DNA of 64,000 nucleotides from Eremomyces bilateralis CBS 781.70 (taxonomy: Eukaryota; Ascomycota; Dothideomycetes; Eremomycetales; Eremomycetaceae): the NCBI RefSeq assembly GCF_010015585.1, contig NW_022985089.1, forward strand, positions 301,954-365,953, in the 5' to 3' direction. The position numbers were made by a program, and so were the translations under genes. Below the pieces are notes generated by a model. That model ran no database searches and was not told the origin of the DNA. It saw only the letters and a list, made by a program, of their open reading frames with translations. Shown piece by piece: positions 33,161 to 64,000 of the stretch; the first letter of the stretch is position 1; the number at the start of each line of letters is the position of its first letter.

Positions 33161-35831
33161 TCAGACAATTTGCCGTGCCAGTGCTTCTGTAGCGAATTGA
33201 AGCCATTCGGCTGCAAGAACCCAGTCGTCCCCGTAGGCGAAAACGATCTCTTGCATGTCATGTATGCGAAAGACTTGGATGAGGCCAAGGTCCTCACATG
33301 GCATCATCTTTTCCTTGATCGATTGAATCTCCTGGAGATCCCTCTTCTCGACCTCGCTGGCAGGCCGAAGACGAAGTTTCTTCTGCAGTTTGTAAATCCC
33401 AGCACCGTCCGTATGCATTTTAACAAAACATTCATGGCGGTGAAGAATAGCAATTCGATTCTCCCGGTGCTGGCGAGCAATGGTTGGCCAGCTGGGGCCG
33501 AAGAAAGTCTCGAAGGATTCGGGAGTATCCAGCCCAGCACCGATCAGCTCCCAGAGAGGGGGCAAAAATGCTTTGCACCTAGACCCGTGAAGTCAGTAGG
33601 TAGTCTCACATGAAACCGTGTGGTATTACGCGCGAGGGTTTGTGCAGTGCATCGGCCATTGAACTTGAGATTGCCGAGATAATGAGAACGTACTTGCTGA
33701 ATTCAGGATCCTTTTTGCCAAAATTGCGCAGTCCTGGCATCTTTCGCGCAAGCTTGCGAGCAGCAGGGTCCACCGGGGCGTTCTCAGTATAGAACTTGTT
33801 GACCGCACTCAATTCAGGGCAACAGTACATATCTAAGCTGGTAAAGAGTCTTCTCCGGCATTTTCTCCCATGTTGTTCCCGGTCCCGGCGCTGACACCGA
33901 CGAGAGCAGTAGAATACCTTCTTGCAACGGCACAGTTTCAGGGGCCGTTTTAGAGTTGCTTCACGCTTTTTGCAACTCTGACACACTCGAGTAGGGCCCC
34001 GAAGGTGCTTACATTGGTAGTCGGGAGCTCCCTCTTTTGGTTTTTTCTTGCCCCTTTCCTTTCCTGTCGGACTCTCCTCTCTGAGTGCATCGCTGCTGGT
34101 ATGGTGGTCGTCCAATTCCTCCATGTTGAGATGCTCCTCGTTGGGGCTATGTCGATGAGGTTCCTCTTCGTTGGAGCCCTCTCCGCTGGGGGGTTCTCCG
34201 CTGGGGTCTTTCCCGCTGAGGTCTTCTCGATTTGGGTCCTTCGGGCTCTCTTTGCTAGCCACCTCAGGGCGCTTTTCCGTTCCCTCCCTCCTGCGTCGTG
34301 GTGGCACACGCTTGAAGCACACCCCACTATGCGTTGCGGCCTCGAACCGTAAGCAGACCCTGGAACAGTACCATATTCTTTGACAATAACGGCAGGGAAA
34401 GAGCTCCAGTTCCTCTGGTGTAGATGCACTCTTGCACACAGTACAGTTGGTAGGAATAGGAGTAGGTTCGTGTTGAGTCAAGCTCGGTCGCTCCACTTTG
34501 ACTGTCGGCGGTTCTCGCGCTTTGCTCTTTCTACTGATTTCGGGCCCTGGATCCGGCTTCGAAGAGCTTGTTTCCCCAGTTTCCCGACTCTGTTCGGGTG
34601 AATCCCCTAACTCTTCCCCACTGGTCTCGGGCCAAGAACCAGGAGCAGCCTTCGACGAGCTTTCTATGGTCATTGGCTGCTTAGGCGCCTGTCTCTGGTT
34701 TGACTTGTGCGCTGACTTGTGCAGTAGTCCTCGTTTGGGTGGCCTTAGGAGCATCAGCAAAATGGGAAAGGCACCTAGGTCCCAAATTTTATCGTTCACG
34801 CCGTTTTCGCTGGGGTCGAGTATTTTTGCGCAAGCCCCTCGAAACCTCGGGCTTACAAACAATTCTTCTAGGAAATCCGGCGATTTCGATAACTTTTGTG
34901 AGAGTGAAATCGTAACGTCATCAGTCCCTAGAGCTTTGGTGCTGAACATCGGGTCGTCTGGAGTACATCCGAATAATTCCTGGATCGTGGTTCGCAGTCC
35001 CTCCGGAATACGTCCTGCCCTGGAGCTGTAAGAGGCAGTGGGATTTGCGGCATGAGACCGTCTCGGTAGCCACATAGGGGAATGACTTTGGGTATTATCG
35101 AAAATCGCGAATGATGCCTCAACACCCACCTCTGTGCCTTGGGCATTGTCGAACATTGGGAATGATGCTTCAACATCCACCTCTGTTCCGTGGGGACTAA
35201 CAACCATCGAGACTTCTGCTTCAATATCAACCTCGGTATTTTGGGGATCATCGAATATCGAGAAACTGGCTTCAATATCGGCCTTAGTGCTTTCGGGATC
35301 ATCAAACATAGACAATCCTGCTTCAATATCGATATCGGTGCTTTGGGGATCGTCCATCGTCGTGCAGGCCGTTTCGGCATCGGCCTGGAGATTCTGTCCC
35401 GCGATATCGTCTTGAGGTTCGATGACAATGTGAGGAAGCTTTTTGATTCCCACCTCTTCCATTACCTGCCCAAGACACGCAGCAAATTCGGCCGTTCGGG
35501 TTTCGAGAATGTACGGAGCAAATCTTCCAGATATGAGAACACGGTTAGACCGGACACCGGAAGCGATTCTCTTCCCGGGGAATAGGAAATTGTATATAAG
35601 TCTATCAACAACGACTTTTGCCAGTTCTATGGAGCCCTCCTCTGGAAGCTCAACAATGGCGCGGGATTGAAACTGAACCGCCGCTGAGCATTTCTGCGTG
35701 AAATGGATTCGTCCCGTGTTCTCTTCGATCCGATTGATTTCGATGTGCCAGTGGTTCTCACTCCCATCGGTGAGGAATCGTGGGCGTGGTAGACGATTAT
35801 ACAGCCCCGCTTCGGATTTCCAATCCACCAT
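33161..35831 (-). CDS. Protein with two MYND-type zinc fingers and 18-residue repeats
   Basis: Exons (minus strand) 35831-33694 and 33578-33161, with a 115-nt intron (gtacgt...ggtctag), give 851 residues. The start is the ATG at 35831. About residues 155-245 consist of five imperfect 18-residue repeats of the FDDPQ-TE-DIEA-S type. Two Cys/His clusters follow: CTVCKSASTPEELELFPCRY...YCSRVC...HSGVC near 460-505 and CQSCKKREATL...CRCKKVFYCSRRC...HGRKC near 605-655, both fitting the MYND pattern. Between them is a degenerate Glu/Ser/Pro repeat (SGKDPSGEPPSGEGSNEEE). The C-terminal ~140 residues (KAFLPPLWELIGAGLDTPES, LHRHECFVKMHTDG) look globular but unrecognised. MYND fingers mediate protein contacts; no catalytic SET domain is seen. 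It looks lineage-specific. Confidence 0.72.
35093..35358 (-). repeat. Coding tandem repeat, 54-bp unit, about five copies
   Basis: Imperfect 54-bp units inside the MYND-protein gene encode 18-residue repeats; each copy has a cttcaatatc-like core and gga-tca-tcg-type segment on the plus strand. Copies differ at several sites, so the array is not brand new. Confidence 0.75.
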
Positions 35832-36590
35832 GATGAACAATTGGACTTTTGATAATGGGTATGGGTAAGGATAAAGCGAAGGTCAGGTAACGATGCGTAT
35901 GATAACGATGGACGAAATTGTGCAGATGCAGCTGAAATGCAGTGGAAAGGAGAACAATTGAAAATCACCGATTGAATCTTTGTTGACGTTTGTTGAGACA
36001 GGTCGCAGGGTAAGGTGCGATCCAGGAGTCGGCATGCCGACTTCTCCATACGACCTCGCAGGGAGGAACACCATCCAGCTGAGCTATTAGACAATGTTAA
36101 GAAGTATGGCATAAGAGAGGCGACCTGTGTTGTGGTTATCTGGTTTGACATATCATGCTATATCATGTATAGATAAATCCCCATCAATTGACAAACATTT
36201 GACACGGTTGACGGGAAAACGAGACGAGATTATGTATGTATTTGACTCATGATGTGCTAAAAGAATGCGTACACCAGCGCTGAATATAAAAAAGGCAACT
36301 CCAGAGACTCCACGACTTCCATTTATACCCACAATGAATCGCAATATCAGCGTGAAAGAAGGACGTTGAACTCCATGGTGTCTCGCCGCTATGCTCACCC
36401 CGCAACAAGCAAATCATGATATGGTCGTTATGTTTGACATCATCTGTAGTCATCGCCAAACGAATAGGCTTTCGTATGGGCAGCATGGGGTATCTTCAAA
36501 TCAAAGCATCATCATACCAATCGTCTGCGGTCAAACCTGAATGGTCTCCTGAATGGTCTCCTGAATCATGTGCAACTCAACGCCACATCT
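35832..36590. other. Intergenic
   Basis: Promoter of the MYND gene and 3' flank of the 1,937-residue gene. It contains a tRNA-like fragment that failed folding (see rejected items) and a short tandem repeat at 36537-36566. Confidence 0.55.
36537..36566. repeat. 12-bp tandem repeat, 2.5 copies
   Basis: ctgaatggtctc is repeated at 36537-36548 and 36549-36560, then ctgaat. It lies 25 bp past the stop codon (3' UTR) of the minus-strand 1,937-residue gene. Confidence 0.7.
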
Positions 36591-53794: not shown

Positions 53795-55731
53795 CTATTC
53801 TTTAAAGCGCGATATCTTGCTATGATAGTTATTCCAGCAGCCACTATCTGTACAGAGAGGGACATTGCAGACACTACAGCCAAATAACGTCTTTCCAGGA
53901 GACTTGCGAAGCACTCCGTTAACTTCAACGACGTCTTTCCGAAGTACTCCATTAATATCAAGAACGTCTCCAAATTTGCGCTTTCTTGTACTAGAAAAGA
54001 TCATCCGACAGCCTACGCAGCGAGCTTGCTCAGTTAATGGTATTAACCTGTGCTCTGCAAGGGGTATCTGTAGTAGATTGGCCTGCGGAGCCTCATAAGT
54101 CTGGGCTAGTCGCTGTTCAAATTGAGCAAGCTTATGCTCTCTGAAGACATCCTCTGAATATCGGAATAACTGTGTCCATAGCTCTGCTCGGAAATTCTTA
54201 TGATCCATATACTGTTGTCCGTGCAGCTGTCGTCCTATTAGATAGGCGTTTAAGATTGATGTATCGATGATCCAGAACCAAAGAGGATACCAATTGCGAA
54301 GGGAGATTCGTTGCGTAGAATAATAGCTGCGGAGCTGATCAGCTATATCGACGCCTCCCATAAAGTGGTTATAGTCGTCGATAAAGATAGGAATTGGAAG
54401 GTTCTTTCGTACGTTATTTGCGAAGACCTTCCGTACAATAGGTCCGTTTGTAGACGTAAGTGCAGGGCGGCGTCTTAAGCGGACGATTGTCTGTTCCTCC
54501 CCAGCATCATGGACTGTAGAGCAAGCGAGGACAGTATTATTGGCCTGCCACGCAAAGCAGATCACACCTGGATCTAAGGGATCCTCCTTCTGCTCCTCCT
54601 GCTCCTCCTGCTGCTCCTGCTTTGCGCGCTTTGTCTGCGAGGCTCCTTGGGAGGCAGCTTGGGAGGCAGTTTGTGATATTCTTGAAGTCTCTGACGGTTC
54701 CTTCTTGATCTTCCTTCGTGCGACAATGGAAGCTGTAGTATTCCACGCTAAACGCTTAGAACAGTACACCTTAAGATTAATCAGAAAGGCAGGGAACTCC
54801 GGGTGCCGTCGAGTAGTTCCGCAAGCTCCAACTCCTGTTTCTCGAAGTTTCCGAAGTAATGGAACACGTGTAAAGAAGTTGTCCATGTAAATAACATGCG
54901 GCGTATCTTTTGGAAGTTGTTGAGCAAGCTGGAATACCATCGATTCAGCCAACGAGAGATCTTTCTGCTTTACTACCTCTCCGTAGCTTTTGGACTTTGA
55001 AGACCATACGAAGGCGTATGTATAGCCAGCTTCACAAAGGGAGAAGATCTTATAGCCTTCCTTAATAGGCTTATTTGGAGCCTTAACTGTATGCTTGCTT
55101 CGTCCAAAGAATCGAATCATCATCTCATCAATTGAGACGTTGACCCCAGGCTTCCAATAACGCGCACAGTTCTCCCGGAACTCCGAAGCAATTGGATCAA
55201 GCTTATACCACCAATTCCGTCTCTTCTCTTGTGCATCGTCGTCCGAGTCATCATTTCCTTCCTGAACAGCCTCTTGAGGCGTTTCTGGAGGGCTGATATG
55301 GAGGAATCTCTTCAGGTCTTCGAACCTATTGAGACTAAGATTTTCCGCGCATATATGTCGGCCAAATTTAGATTTCCAGTAGTCTTCGTGCGCAGGGAGG
55401 CGCACTACGCCCATGTACCATAGATGAAGACCCCGATAAAGACCTTAATTTCAGATGCTGTCGTAGGGCACCAGCTTCGCTTCCCTGCAATGCCTGCTTC
55501 CTTAGCTCTTGCATATTTATTGGTATTCTCCGCGATCGTTTGGAAGTGTTGATCAGTAAGGAATAGCTTAAAGAGATTGTACGGGTCTGTTTTATTCCCG
55601 TCCGGGATCTGGATTGCTGGTAATCGAGAAATATTGCGATATGGGAGCGGATCGTAGCTTGGAGGCTCCGGAATTGCTTTAATCAGTGTTGTAGGCTCTA
55701 ATTTGGCACATTTAGAAGGCCTACCCGACAT
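53795..55731 (-). pseudogene. piggyBac transposase, frameshifted between two frames
   Basis: DDE transposase of the piggyBac family. The 5' part (ATG at 55731, MSGRPSKCAKLEPTTLIKAI) ends EIKVFIGVFIYGTWA-stop. The 3' part begins MGVVRLPAHEDYW in another frame and runs 539 codons to 53795. In the family VFIG..IY and MG...LP are contiguous, so only five bases (55415-55419) lie between where six or none are expected: a single-base loss is likely. No intron can fit. The 3' part retains the catalytic Asp contexts SIDEMMIRFFGR, YMDNFFTRVPL and MGGVDIADQL, and the C-terminal Cys-rich finger (CVGCRMIF, CSVCNVPLCTDSGC). A sequencing error or internal start could rescue it; otherwise it is recently inactivated. 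Confidence 0.85.
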
Positions 55732-58096: not shown

Positions 58097-58108
58097 TCAT
58101 CACGAGCG
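58097..58108 (+). repeat. Helitron left terminal inverted repeat
   Basis: tcatcacgagcg, perfect inverted match to 63946-63957; begins with TC. Confidence 0.65.
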
Positions 58109-58186
58109 TAGCGAGTTACTTAAGTGGTATTGGTAGAATCAAAAACTTTTTATTGCCCTCTCATTGGCTAGACAGGGGTTCGCGAA

Positions 58187-58225
58187 AGGAAACCACGTGA
58201 TTTATGAGAGGAAACCACGTGATTT
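58187..58225 (+). promoter_or_regulatory. 17-bp direct repeat with CACGTG in Helitron promoter
   Basis: aggaaaccacgtgattt occurs at 58187-58203 and 58209-58225, each containing a CACGTG box, about 170 bp before the RepHel start. It could be a transcription-factor site or a replication-initiation iteron; function is not known. Confidence 0.5.
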
Positions 58226-58389
58226 CGATGCTTTTTACTGTTTACTTTCTGTCGCTCTCTTTCCTCTCCACCACTCTTCCCACATGGGCCTCGCAGGGAG
58301 GCCTAACGGGCGTAGGGATACCAATCAATCAATCTACTTCTTATTCCTGATCTACCACTTACTTATCCTTCTATTATTACGCCTCCGAC

Positions 58390-61300
58390 ATGTCATCTTC
58401 TGGAGACGCCGGTGGTAGAGTATGCTCGAATTGTAGGTCCTGGAGGGTTGATAAGGAGTTTACTTCGAAGCGTCGCCGACTACTGGTCAAGAAGTGCTGG
58501 CGATGTCGTTACGGCCACGATCATGGTGATGCTGTAGGTAGAGTGAATGATTCGAATACGTTCAAGCTGACATCATTAGACCCCCTATCTTCGACCCGCC
58601 GCTACGTCTACGCGAGACGCCTCGTCCTCGCAACCAACCGACACTGAGGACGATAGGTCTTGGAGGCGGGAGGCTTCCCTATTCCACCGTGCCGGAATAC
58701 ATAGCCAAGACGATGGGGATAGAGCCGCTGCTCGCAGGGAGTATAATGCTATGTCACGGGCTCATCGCGCTGCTACTCGTCTACACCGTAATGTCCAGCC
58801 GCTACCAACGTTCGGGGATTATCTCCAACGACGGAGGCTATCACCTTCACATCAACCGCAATCAGGTCAAGGTGCTCCTGATGATGGCGACAACGGGTTT
58901 AGGCGTCTAAGTCCGATCTCCTTGGCCGGGTTATCCCAAATTCAGGGCGATGAGCAACCCCGTACACGTCATCAGGAAGATGAGCAACGCGATCGTACAC
59001 GTCAACGGACAGATGAGCAAAGCGATCGTACACGTCAACGGAGAGATGAGCAACGCAATCGTACACGTCAACAGCGAGATGATGGTCGTACAGAAGCACT
59101 TCAGCGCGGAGATGTTCGCCTCGATCCCCAGTCCCGGGATTTCAACATCCAGGATGCCAATCTTTCCGAGCAGGATTGGGGATACGTTAAGGCCTTCCAC
59201 CAGGAGATGGCTAGTTTGAACCTTGAGCACTGCGCCCAATGTGACGAAAAATGGTTTGATATGCGTCTCGTGGATGGTATATGTCATCGATGTAGGATCG
59301 ACGATAGGAAACGAGGCGATTTACCACCGCTGTATTCCGCAGAGAATCATTTAAATCCTGGTCTGGGCCCGTCGCATCACAATCTTCCTGAGTTATCTCA
59401 AGTAGAGGAGCTCCTTATCGCCCGTGTCCATTGTGCTGTGGAGGTTCGAAAGGTTAACGGTCTTCAGTACCGTTATACAGGACATATCATCAACTTCATG
59501 AGAGACGTGGGGCGCGTATACAATCGACTACCTCTCCTTCCGAAAGACCTTGAGATCGTTGTCCTTCGCCCTGCGAATTGGGATCAGGATCCCCGTATGC
59601 AGCGCCAGTTTCGACGCGACTACCGTGTTCGCCGTACTGTCATCGAGCAGTGGCTAACCCATCTCAAGGTTCACCCCCCTAGATATCTGTCGTGAGCAGT
59701 TGCTAACCCATCTAAAGGTTTACCACCCCGGATATCGCGATGTCGTCGTCGACCCTAGCCGCGTGCAGCATCTTCCTATTGATGATAGTATTATGGAAGA
59801 GGTCGGCGTCCAGACTATTGAGGAAGAAGAGCTAGGAGGCGGCGATGACGATACGGGAGACGAGGTAGATTACGTCGCCGTAGTCCCGGATCTCCTCCAA
59901 CCCCAGACGGAGATGGAGCAACTTCGGCAGCATGTCGATGATGCTCATGAACGTCGACGTGAGCATCTGACGATGCCTGAGTTTAGATTGACTCCTCTAT
60001 CTGAGTTTAACCACTCTCAGGCTCTTCTAAGCCTGGCGTTCCCAAGCTGCTTCCCCTGCGGTATTGGGGACTTCGTTCATCCCCGTCTCCGTAAGGTAGA
60101 GTATCGTGAATATATTAAGCATCTGATGAGGTTCCACGATGGTCGCTTTGCGAAACATCCGCGCCTACGGTATGTCCTTTTTAACACTCTTTTCCGGAAA
60201 CAGGTCAGTACCCGTGCATCTTACTTCGTTCGTCAACGTCCTGAGCATAATGATCTATCTCTTGAGGAACTCCGTGCTGCTTTTGCGGATGACTCTCCTG
60301 AAGCCCAGGCCCTTCTGAACTCTATTATCCGTTTTTCAGGGAGTCTACGCGGCACGCGGCCCTATTGGATTGGGCGTGGTAAGCAGCTTGAAGCTACCGT
60401 GCAATGGTTTGGGTCTCCCGACATCTTTTTAACGCTGTCGGCCGCCGATTACCACTGGGATGATCTACAGCGTCATTTACCTCAATATGAGGAGTGGCGT
60501 AATGGATCTCCAGCGGAGCGGATCTCAATCTCACGCCGGAACCTCCGAGACTATCCCCATATCGCCGCCTTCCTCTTTCATCGGCGCCGTGAGGCTCTCT
60601 ACAAGAATTTAGTAGATCCTAAGTTTAACATCCGCGATCAATGGGGCCGATACGAGTGGCAGGGTCGCGGCTCGTCGCACTCACATTTCCTCCTCTGGCT
60701 AGACCGTGCCTGCCCTAACAGCGAGCTTGATCGTATCCCTACGGAGGATCTCCCTGCCGCCCTTGAGAAATTTGCGCAGTTCTGGGGCGGTCACATCACG
60801 GCGTTAAACCCCGAACCTTCCCGTCGGGTGCGACCAGAGGATGAGCGGAGTGCTATCGCGCTAAGTCCCCACACCCAGGAGAATATACTGGCCCATTACT
60901 CGGCTATCATCAACCGTGTACAGAGGCACCACTGCAGTGATGCGTACTGCCTCCGTACGAATAAACGCACTGACCGGAAGGAGTGTCGTTTCTACGCCCC
61001 ATGGCGGATCCGGGATGTGCCTGTGGTTACGAAGGATGAAGGCAACCCTAGGTTCTTTAACTTTCGCGGTATCCGGAACGATGATCGGTTAAATCACAGC
61101 AACCCTGCCCTTATCACAGCCTGGCTTGCGAATATCGATATCACGCCCTGTACAGGGAGTCGAGCAGTATTAGCGTATCTTGGAAAGTACTGCTCAAAAC
61201 CAGAGAAGAAGACGGCCACCTTCCACGATATCCTAAAACATCTCCTAACGATCGTTCCCGAACATACGCGCCGGCCATTCCTTTCGCTGACCACGAAGAT

Positions 61301-63575
61301 TATGAATCGTCTAATTGGTGAGCGGGATTGGTCAGCCCAGGAGGTTTCCCATATTCTTCTTGATCTCCCCCTCCAAGTCTCTTCACGCGTGGTGATTTCC
61401 GTCGATTGTCGCCCGGAGGTGGAGCAGCCCCAAGGAATTGAAATCCAGGACGATGGGACTATCCAGAGCGGCCTCTCCCCTCTTCAAAAGTATAAGCAAA
61501 GACCTGAAGCGTTTAACGACATTTCCTATCTTGAGTTTCTACGTTGCTATGAATTCGCACGGGTTAACTCAATTCGGAAGAGAGGAGAAGGGAAGGAGCG
61601 GGCGTTAAATTACTTCCCCCGATATTCATCGGTCGGCGATACCCGCGAAGACTGGTGTCGCGTTAAACTGATGCTACATCACCCCTTCCGCCGTATGGAT
61701 GATCTCCTCCGGCCCGAGCTTGATGGTCTGCTTTTTGCGTCGTATTCTGAGGTGTATTCCGCGTCTTGCGTGAATGGTCAGCATAACCATCCGGTGGATC
61801 ATTACGACCCTATTGTTCTTGCGGACGAGGATGAGTTTGAAGAAGGCGCCAATGAGGAGGAGGATCAGCAAGGGAGCTGGGATGAGCTCGCCGGTCAACT
61901 GCCTGGTCGCGATAGAACCGTTCTAGAGGACCCAGATGCCCTTGGTCAACGACCTCTTGACCGTGAGTACGATTGGGCGTCCCATGTCGGGAAGTATGAG
62001 ATTACGAAGGAGTGGTGGGCCACTGCAAAGGCCCAGTATCCCTATATTCATGAAGCTGTTCCCTTCGCACCTGATACCGTTGAAAAGCTGAACGCTAAAC
62101 AACGTATAACATACGATATCCTGACGACCCACTTCGCACACGTTATTGCGACAGGCACTCCTGGGCCTCAGCTTCTGATTAACGTTGATGGCGAGGCGGG
62201 TACAGGGAAGTCTTTTGTTATTCAGCTGATCTCCTCGCATCTCCAGGAGGCAGCTTCACGGCATAGATTACCGAACCCTGTTCTTCGTGCTGCGCCTACG
62301 GGCGTCGCAGCTCACAGTCTCTCCGCGTCGACACTACATACTCTTTTCCGTCTTCCTGTCCAGAATATCAATTCTCTCGATCCCCTCCGGCCGGCTGCTC
62401 TTCAAGCCGCTCAGGCCACCTTCCGGGGTATACGGTACCTGATTATCGATGAAAAATCTATGATCGGCCTTCGCCAGCTCTCCCATATTGACCGTCGTTG
62501 CCGCGAGATCTTTCCTGGCGTAGACAAGTCTTTCGGTGGTCTCTGTATTCTCCTCTGTGGCGACTTCTTCCAGCTTCCTCCGGTCTTGGCAACTGCTCTT
62601 TATAACCAGAAGAGTCATCTAAATCTAGATGAACGGCATGGGCGTAGTATCTACTACCAATTCGAGCGAACGATCAAACTTGATGAAGTCGTGCGGCAGC
62701 AGGGTAATGACGTTGAGTCGATTCAGTTCCGCCAGGCTCTCGATCACCTGCGGATAGGCTCCGCAACTCGTGACGACTGGACACTGCTTAGTACACGAGT
62801 ACAGGCCATGCTTCCGTCTGAGGAGGTAGCATCGTTTGGGGACACTCTCCGTATCTTTGGTAAGAAAGCGCCGGTCGCCGTGTATAACTACTGTCGTTTA
62901 CGCGATCTCCGTTCTCCTGTTATGATATGTCGAGCTATTCACGAAGGAGGGGCGAAGGCAGAAAAAGTTCCGACTAATGAGGCAGGAAACCTCCATTCGG
63001 AGATTCCGATGGCGTTGGGAACCCGTATTATGTTGACAGAGAATCTCTGGACCGAACGAGGCCTGGTGAACGGTGCGATGGGAACAGTGCGTGATATTAG
63101 CTGGCAGGCTGGTGCTGATATCCATAAGGATCCTCCTTCCGTACTCCTCGTTCAATTCGATCGGTATGATGGACCGACGTTGGACGTAGGCGGCATTGGC
63201 TTGGTCCCAATCCTCCTATCACGCCGCGAGTTCTATATCGAGAATACTTCCTGCTCACGTTCACAGTTCCCGTTGACCATCGCCTATGCCATCACAACGC
63301 ATAAGTCGCAGGGAATGACTCTAGAACGGGCTGTGCTGGACATTTCGGAGCGGGAGTTCGCGCCTGGCCTGACCTATGTGGCAGTCTCCCGTGTGAAAAG
63401 CCTTAGAGGGATCATGTTTGAGGCTCCATTCGACTTGCAGGATTTGAACCCTCGCACGGAGAGCGAGACGATGAAGTTCCGGAAGGAGGATGCGCAGAGG
63501 AGGGAGAACCAGCATATCACGGCAGAGGTTTGTTTACATTATTTGAATCAATCGCGCGGTGTTGACATAGTGTAG
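58390..63575 (+). CDS. Helitron RepHel protein (HUH replication initiator plus PIF1-type helicase)
   Basis: Proposed exons 58390-58533, 58580-59668 and 59718-63575 give 1,696 residues without an internal stop. Order: an N-terminal zinc-finger-like CSNCRSWRVDKEF...KKCWRCR; an Arg/Gln/Glu repeat region; a CAQCDEKWFD...CHRCR cluster and a DUF6570-like segment ending THLK/VYHPGYRDVVVD; the Helitron_like_N Rep domain with GSSHSHFLLWLD near residue 728 (HxH metal site) and AVLAYLGKYCSK near 898 (catalytic Tyr region); then a PIF1-like superfamily-1 helicase with GEAGTGKS near 1235 (Walker A), IIDEKSM, GDFFQLPP and ITTHKSQGMTLERAV. Rep nicks and rejoins DNA; the helicase unwinds during rolling-circle movement. 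Both introns are short (46 and 49 nt), and the second lies in a tandem duplication. All key motifs are intact, so it may be autonomous. Confidence 0.87.
58949..59077 (+). repeat. 33-bp coding tandem repeat in RepHel gene, about four copies
   Basis: Units starting gatgagcaa at 58949 (30 bp, degenerate), 58979, 59012 and 59045, each 33 bp, encode 11-residue DEQ-x-x-R-T-R-Q-R repeats rich in charge. The last three copies are nearly identical. Confidence 0.85.
59645..59742 (+). repeat. 49-bp imperfect tandem duplication spanning the second RepHel intron
   Basis: gagcagtggctaacccatct (59645) recurs as gagcagttgctaacccatct (59694), and both copies continue with AAGGTT and a ccccc-gatatc segment. 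Copies differ at about 12 positions. Donor AAG|GT in copy 1 and acceptor AAAG in copy 2 delimit a 49-nt intron (59669-59717). Confidence 0.85.
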
Positions 63576-63945
63576 GATATCCGACGGGCAGTCGGATCGT
63601 CATCCTCAATTCCGCTTTCTTCGCAGGCGGCACTGTTAGGACGGAGTTCATAGCTGGGTGGCGTGGATGCGGAGGATTTCCGGAAGGCGGAGAGTGAATG
63701 CTGTAAGCAAGGTAGTTATGTGGCGCGAGATCAGGATCAAAACATCACTGTACGATCAGACGATCAGATGAGAAAAGGGGATCATTTGATTTCCTAATTA
63801 GGAAGTATGCACTCGTCGCGAAGATGCTGTTTTTGAGCGATTCAACTATTTCCGTGTTTCCTCCCCATGATTAGGAATACCTTGATTAATAATCCTACGG
63901 GGGGTGATGCTATACTCTAGGATGGGAGAGATCACGTGCTAGCTG
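63576..63945. other. Helitron 3' untranslated and terminal region
   Basis: AT-rich, no gene; the terminal hairpin lies near 63931-63955. Confidence 0.5.
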
Positions 63946-63957
63946 CGCTCGTGATGA
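63946..63957 (-). repeat. Helitron right terminal inverted repeat
   Basis: cgctcgtgatga, perfect inverted match to 58097-58108. Confidence 0.65.
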
Positions 63958-64000
63958 TTTGGGGCAGAAAGGTTGCCTTTATGCACCACTGGCCTATTTT

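Follow-up and report, generated by a model that had tools for sequence, protein, structure and literature searches.

The window, by which we mean the whole stretch of DNA analysed (64,000 nucleotides, contig C23:301954-365953, in a genome of 26.6 Mb in 62 contigs), ends in a complete Helitron, copy A. Its short introns and the genes that it contains point to a fungal source. That the gene of this element is a Helitron gene had been proposed from the bare sequence, and domain matches bear it out: DUF6570 lies upstream, followed downstream by Helitron_like_N (Rep) and a PIF1 helicase. The features of the element are as follows, in window coordinates:

58100-64000, plus strand: complete Helitron2-type element, copy A (5901 bp), with 5' end TCACGAGCGTAGCGAG and 3' end CTATTTT, boundaries common to other copies
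58390-58533, plus strand: predicted first coding exon, with an ATG at 58390
58534-58579, plus strand: predicted N-terminal intron of 46 nt (GTAGGT...GCTGAC...TTAG), serving as a comparison within the gene; alignable with C2, C7 and C21
58580-59668, plus strand: second coding exon, ending in DUF6570 (PF20209), profile positions 2-122 of 133 when the junction is left unjoined
59638-59687, plus strand: repeat copy 1, 50 nt, from alignment and Tandem Repeats Finder
59688-59736, plus strand: repeat copy 2, 49 nt, from alignment and Tandem Repeats Finder
59669-59717, plus strand: proposed phase-0 intron of 49 nt (AAG^GTTCAC...TAAAG^GTT), the only choice of one-period junction under which the protein reads as it does in C7
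59692-59697, plus strand: alternative donor GTGAGC, in frame with an acceptor at 59758 (67-nt intron)
59702-59707, plus strand: branch-site-like GCTAAC, from repeat copy 2; the same hexamer occurs in the C21 intron, and similar branch-like sites occur in host introns
59718-63575, plus strand: last coding exon, with Helitron_like_N (Rep) and PIF1 helicase, stop included

Judged from its Rep and PIF1-type helicase domains and its asymmetric inverted repeat, the element carrying the duplication is of the Helitron2 type. The first 12 bases (58100-58111) match positions 63943-63954 as an inverted repeat at 11/12 positions, 46 nt from the 3' end. On the left, the junction is TNA^T in 5/5 copies whose flank can be read; on the right the next base is A in 4/6 copies, T in C34 and C in C40. 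The ATTTT end and the TNAT/A target of the copy A family are like those of FoHeli1/2. When both proposed introns are omitted, the gene reads as a single frame of 1696 codons plus stop. The Helitron is adjoined by a minus-strand frame of 549 codons (53798-55444) matching DDE_Tnp_1_7, which we take to be a piggyBac-type transposase domain. Elsewhere in the window, tandem repeats of about 51 bp (35088-35351) lie within a minus-strand frame (33609-35882) that bears a MYND finger.

The imperfect tandem duplication of 49/50 bp is real. Tandem Repeats Finder reports it at 59637-59736 (period 49, 2.0 copies, 84% matches, score 144), and when aligned, the two repeat copies agree in 42 of 50 columns, with a single gap. 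It can be seen that AAGGTT is present in both copies, as the sequence-only reading had described, although the limits given there (59645-59742) were a few bases off from those of the alignment (59638-59736). Also in agreement with that reading, unspliced translation runs into a TGA at 59693-59695. This TGA closes the frame on the upstream side (58580-59695); downstream, 1305 codons are open in the frame 59658-63575. An artefact of assembly is unlikely, because the duplication is found again elsewhere in the genome, in the diverged copies C2 (93% identity) and C1 (92%). The RNA fold of the region gave z = -2.08. A second tandem array, with a 33-bp unit in 3.7 in-frame copies, is present in the same exon at 58961-59082, and the Helitron gene seems prone to short tandem duplications.

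A DNA search of the genome with a 501-base query gave 9 matches, and the duplication is carried by six listed copies: C34, C23, C40, C31, C2 and C1. The first four are near-identical. No difference was found between C23 and C34 in 5901 positions, or between C40 and C31 in the 4023 that they share, and the two pairs are distinguished by 2 sites (in 5901). Contig breaks fall at the element ends in C23, C34 and C40 and inside the element in C31. Because the contigs break at or in the element and the members of each pair are identical, the four matches most likely represent two physical copies, A and B, with contigs C23-C34 and C31-C40 each probably joining. Four independent near-identical copies were therefore rejected, and the six duplication-bearing copies most likely correspond to four physical loci. 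The contig of the window stops exactly at the Helitron 3' end (64000), and C34 and C40 each have a terminus at the 5' end. C2 and C1, with 93% and 92% identity over the query, have the same duplication and carry stops elsewhere.

Other relatives differ at this site. The sequence-only reading had suggested looking among related Helitrons for a missing 49-bp copy, and this is what is observed in C7 (L023), from which exactly one repeat copy is missing and in which LKVHHPGYRD reads unbroken. C38 (L024) equals C7 where compared, with an N gap over the duplication site; both are without the equivalent of 61102-63613. With the same segment missing and different flanks, C7 and C38 probably represent a non-autonomous derivative that has transposed. 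A distant copy at C2:1671076 (80/170 residues identical) is uninterrupted at the site. C21 (81% identity) carries at the identical junction and phase a canonical-looking 47-nt sequence, GTATGT...GTAGCTAACCTATCTCTAG, with the signals GTATGT...GCTAAC...CTAG. Relatives were also sought in viral contigs, where 2 pattern matches were obtained and 0 confirmed. An introner-like element was considered and rejected: 11/11 genome matches to 59660-59725 fall in copies of the same Helitron (E up to 10, only the best candidates being scored), and among the best-scored genome matches the 49-nt intron sequence was found only in Helitron copies.

Use of the donor at 59669 (AAG^GTTCAC) and the acceptor at 59717 (TAAAG^GTTTAC) would take out 49 nt and leave one open frame. 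The claim that removal of one period restores the frame and rejoins a conserved segment is thus correct as a description. However, removal of one period always restores the prior reading in any tandem duplication, so the frame argument has no weight alone, and frame restoration is no independent sign of splicing. The same holds for the rejoining of the conserved DUF6570, which is automatic for tandem duplications. After the exons are joined, the DUF6570 score rises from 83.9 to 95.8 bits. In 7/15 genome matches, C7 included, this domain runs uninterrupted to profile position 132-133; in another 7/15, namely those bearing either the duplication or the intron of C21, it halts at 117-122, and the remaining match (1/15) is interrupted by an N gap.

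The putative splicing signals were compared with those of 13 host introns from chaperonin genes, read by eye and taken one per stretch, with four tubulin loci left out. Twelve of these are 47-57 nt long and one is 95 nt (two lengths were counted by hand), and a length of 49 nt is typical. The branch-like GCTAAC was correctly placed by the sequence-only reading: its branch A stands 11 nt before the final base of the proposed intron. The donor GTTCAC scored -4.18 on a small table built from the same 13 introns, under the lowest host donor (-2.73, leave-one-out), and the acceptor is AAAG. On this table the C21 donor GTATGT scored 4.81. Changes between the repeats are distributed as 11/49 on the intron side and 6/50 on the exon side, which is not a significant difference (p = 0.19).

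The divergence of the repeats might instead have created a stronger donor, GTGAGC at 59692, used imprecisely with CCTAG at 59758. This 67-nt segment (59692-59758) is in frame and open, its donor scores 0.40, compared with -4.18 for GTTCAC, and GTGAGC is also the donor in 1/13 of the eye-read host introns. Its use, however, would discard the conserved YRDVVVD stretch and separate GCTAAC from the AG by about 50 nt. On that path an in-frame TAA interrupts repeat copy 1 of C2, and the choice is one among 16 in-frame GT-AG combinations (donors 59601-59720, lengths 38-129). We regard it as very improbable.

It may also be asked whether the duplication is spliced at all. It could be a disabling or tolerated insertion, leaving the upstream part truncated, with Rep and helicase expressed from a start of their own or with A and B moved in trans. 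The very weak donor and the AAAG acceptor fit such a proposal, the first in-frame ATG stands at 59793, and the recent movement of A and B that is read from their 2 differences does not imply autonomy. DUF6570 would, however, end up truncated, and the canonical signals of C21 at the same place keep this domain in one frame. Selection on the coding sequence bears on the question. Over the 791 codons at which C2 and C21 agree, the copy A branch shows 38 synonymous changes in the last exon against 15 nonsynonymous ones (omega about 0.15, p = 6e-11). This indicates purifying selection and hence a downstream half that was functional there, though a separate start at 59793 could also account for such selection. 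The degenerate C2 has 47 synonymous and 50 nonsynonymous changes with 4 stops, and its omega of 0.42 is also below 1. Exon 1 from 59100 gave 4 synonymous and 4 nonsynonymous changes on the copy A branch, too few to tell. We consider an unspliced insertion improbable, and in our judgement it is somewhat more likely than not that the 49-nt intron is spliced at least in part.

The intron had been called young, and this description is not supported. By hand count, with the C7 unit as reference, the intron of A, C2 and C1 shares four substitutions and one deletion, and private substitutions number 1 in A, 3 in C2 and 3 in C1. Because these copies share both the duplication and the intron changes, the duplication predates their split, across which four-fold divergence is about 10-24% (A-C2, A-C1 and C2-C1). 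It is therefore not freshly made. In the last exon, four-fold divergence (JC) is 0.107 for A-C2, 0.118 for A-C7 and 0.286 for A-C21. On the assumption that the intron and four-fold sites evolve at one rate, the duplication dates near the C21 split, before or after it; this dating rests on four shared changes, with wide limits of about 1 to 8.

An unduplicated intron at the same place was named by the sequence-only reading as evidence against a birth by duplication, and C21 answers to it in part: its intron looks canonical and its 5' half carries no trace of the duplication (similarity undetected, p 0.40-0.79), but similarity to the exon end persists in its 3' half. The last 19 nt of the C21 intron match the exon end of the window family at 16/19 positions in a fixed register. 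Outside the branch site and the AG the match is 8/11 (p 0.001-0.012, depending on the assumed base match rate). In shuffles of the C21 intron with its signals preserved, the resemblance to the duplicated unit had p = 0.005, that to the majority (reconstructed) ingroup intron 0.028 and that to the exon of C21 itself 0.07. We infer that the C21 intron descends from the same duplication and would have gained its canonical signals later.

The divergence between C21 and A is itself a mosaic. Four-fold sites differ at 33/54 in 59300-59659, at 19/67 before this tract, at 7/45 in the 360 nt after the intron and at 134/564 in the last exon (Fisher tests, p = 4e-4, 4e-6 and 5e-8, with the limits of the tract picked after the profile was seen). 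Relative to C21, 59300-59659 looks as if an exchanged tract had an edge near the intron. A recombination edge there could explain why the 3' half of the C21 intron is related and the 5' half unrelated; it also leaves room for a pre-existing intron from another lineage.

Such a pre-existing intron is the basis of a different history, in which an ordinary intron of the C21 type (GTATGT) is the older state. The ancestor of the window family would have lost it, so that AAG^GTT remained as it does in C7, and an independent duplication at the same proto-splice site would later have produced a new intron or an intron-like segment. The canonical signals of C21 and a 5' half unlike the repeat speak for this history, as does the mosaic (33/54 upstream versus 7/45 downstream), by which the exon end and half the intron of C21 may come from another lineage. 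It also draws on the position of C7. The tree of the upstream segment places C7 with C1 (bootstrap 89) and A, B and C2 together (99), and that of the downstream segment leaves the position of C7 unresolved; C7 as the first branch of the window family was not rejected by the AU test (p = 0.17 upstream, 0.25 downstream and 0.41 together). Against this history stand the identity of the C21 intron 3' end with the window-family exon end at 16/19, the uninterrupted site in the distant Helitrons of this genome, and the number of events required at a single site, namely gain, loss and renewed gain. We hold it to be rather unlikely. Homology of the C21 intron would make the state of C7 a precise loss; without such homology, that state may be ancestral. 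Our judgement is that C7 probably lost one repeat exactly.

The duplication itself, the one-copy state in C7, the intron-bearing C21 and the uninterrupted distant relative are direct observations. The reading that we prefer, to which we assign a probability of roughly 0.5, is that an ancestral element acquired its intron through the duplication, earlier than the divergence of the copies that bear the duplication and probably earlier than the C21 split. The tandem duplication would have affected 50 bp of coding sequence, with CAT CTC AAG^GTT CAC CAC at its centre, in an ancestor of this Helitron2 family. The 5' splice site (AAG^GT) would have come from the upstream repeat copy. The downstream one would have provided both the 3' splice site (AG^GT) and the branch site, GCTAAC being already present within the codons TGG CTA ACC. 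Splicing could then remove the intervening stretch of roughly 50 nt and leave the protein unchanged. In the C21 line ordinary, canonical signals would have been acquired later, C7 would probably have lost one repeat exactly, and copy A and its near-twin B would keep a still visible repeat with weak splice sites.

A more far-reaching proposal is that one family in one genome displays the whole life cycle, from a single-copy exon through a weak-site duplication to a mature canonical intron with a nearly erased repeat, and exact repeat-driven reversal; we put this forward tentatively and think it rather unlikely. Its interest is that a multi-copy transposon provides replicate lineages in one genome, in which states of intron birth, maturation and loss are directly comparable. 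If the series holds, the repeats that build such an intron can also delete it exactly. Duplication-born introns would then be reversible at the DNA level, and precise intron loss could occur without cDNA.

Tandem genomic duplication is described as an accepted route of intron gain, shown in vivo for one vertebrate intron (PMC3443670), and few gained introns are stated to have a known source (PMC4974935). The mechanism is already known; what copy A and its relatives contribute is a transposon family in which several states coexist within one genome, useful as an example of this route though unproven. In titles and abstract openings, with thin coverage of subscription journals, no report of a duplication-born intron in a Helitron gene was found. 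Among Helitrons, the closest comparison is with FoHeli1/FoHeli2, Helitron2 elements of Fusarium oxysporum (PMC5148889), which as described there are like copy A in their TC start, ATTTT end, asymmetric inverted repeat tens of nt from the 3' end, size of 5-6 kb and TNAT target, and differ from it in terminal sequence; the word 'intron' is absent from the main text on them (PMC5148889).

Among introns, the vertebrate ATP2A1 case, as presented in PMC4974935 and PMC3443670, resembles copy A in that an AGGT-bearing coding segment was doubled, splicing from the first copy to the second would leave the protein intact, and the branch site lies in the unit. The Helitron case differs in its transposon gene, its several states in one genome and its poor donor, and its splicing is predicted from DNA sequence. 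The fission-yeast genes SPOG_01682 and SOCG_00815, in the account of PMC3629103, likewise have a short fungal-type intron from imperfect tandem repeats with a proto-splice site; their units are 24 nt with AGGC in a host gene with EST support, whereas those of the Helitron are 49/50 nt with AGGT. The second intron of potato RdRp is reported (PMC4974935) to be duplication-born with its repeat still visible and ten differences between the copies, and in this it is like copy A. Most of its signals came from a parental intron and its splicing was seen by RNA-seq, whereas all signals of the proposed Helitron intron would come from coding sequence, unless the history with an older C21-type intron holds.
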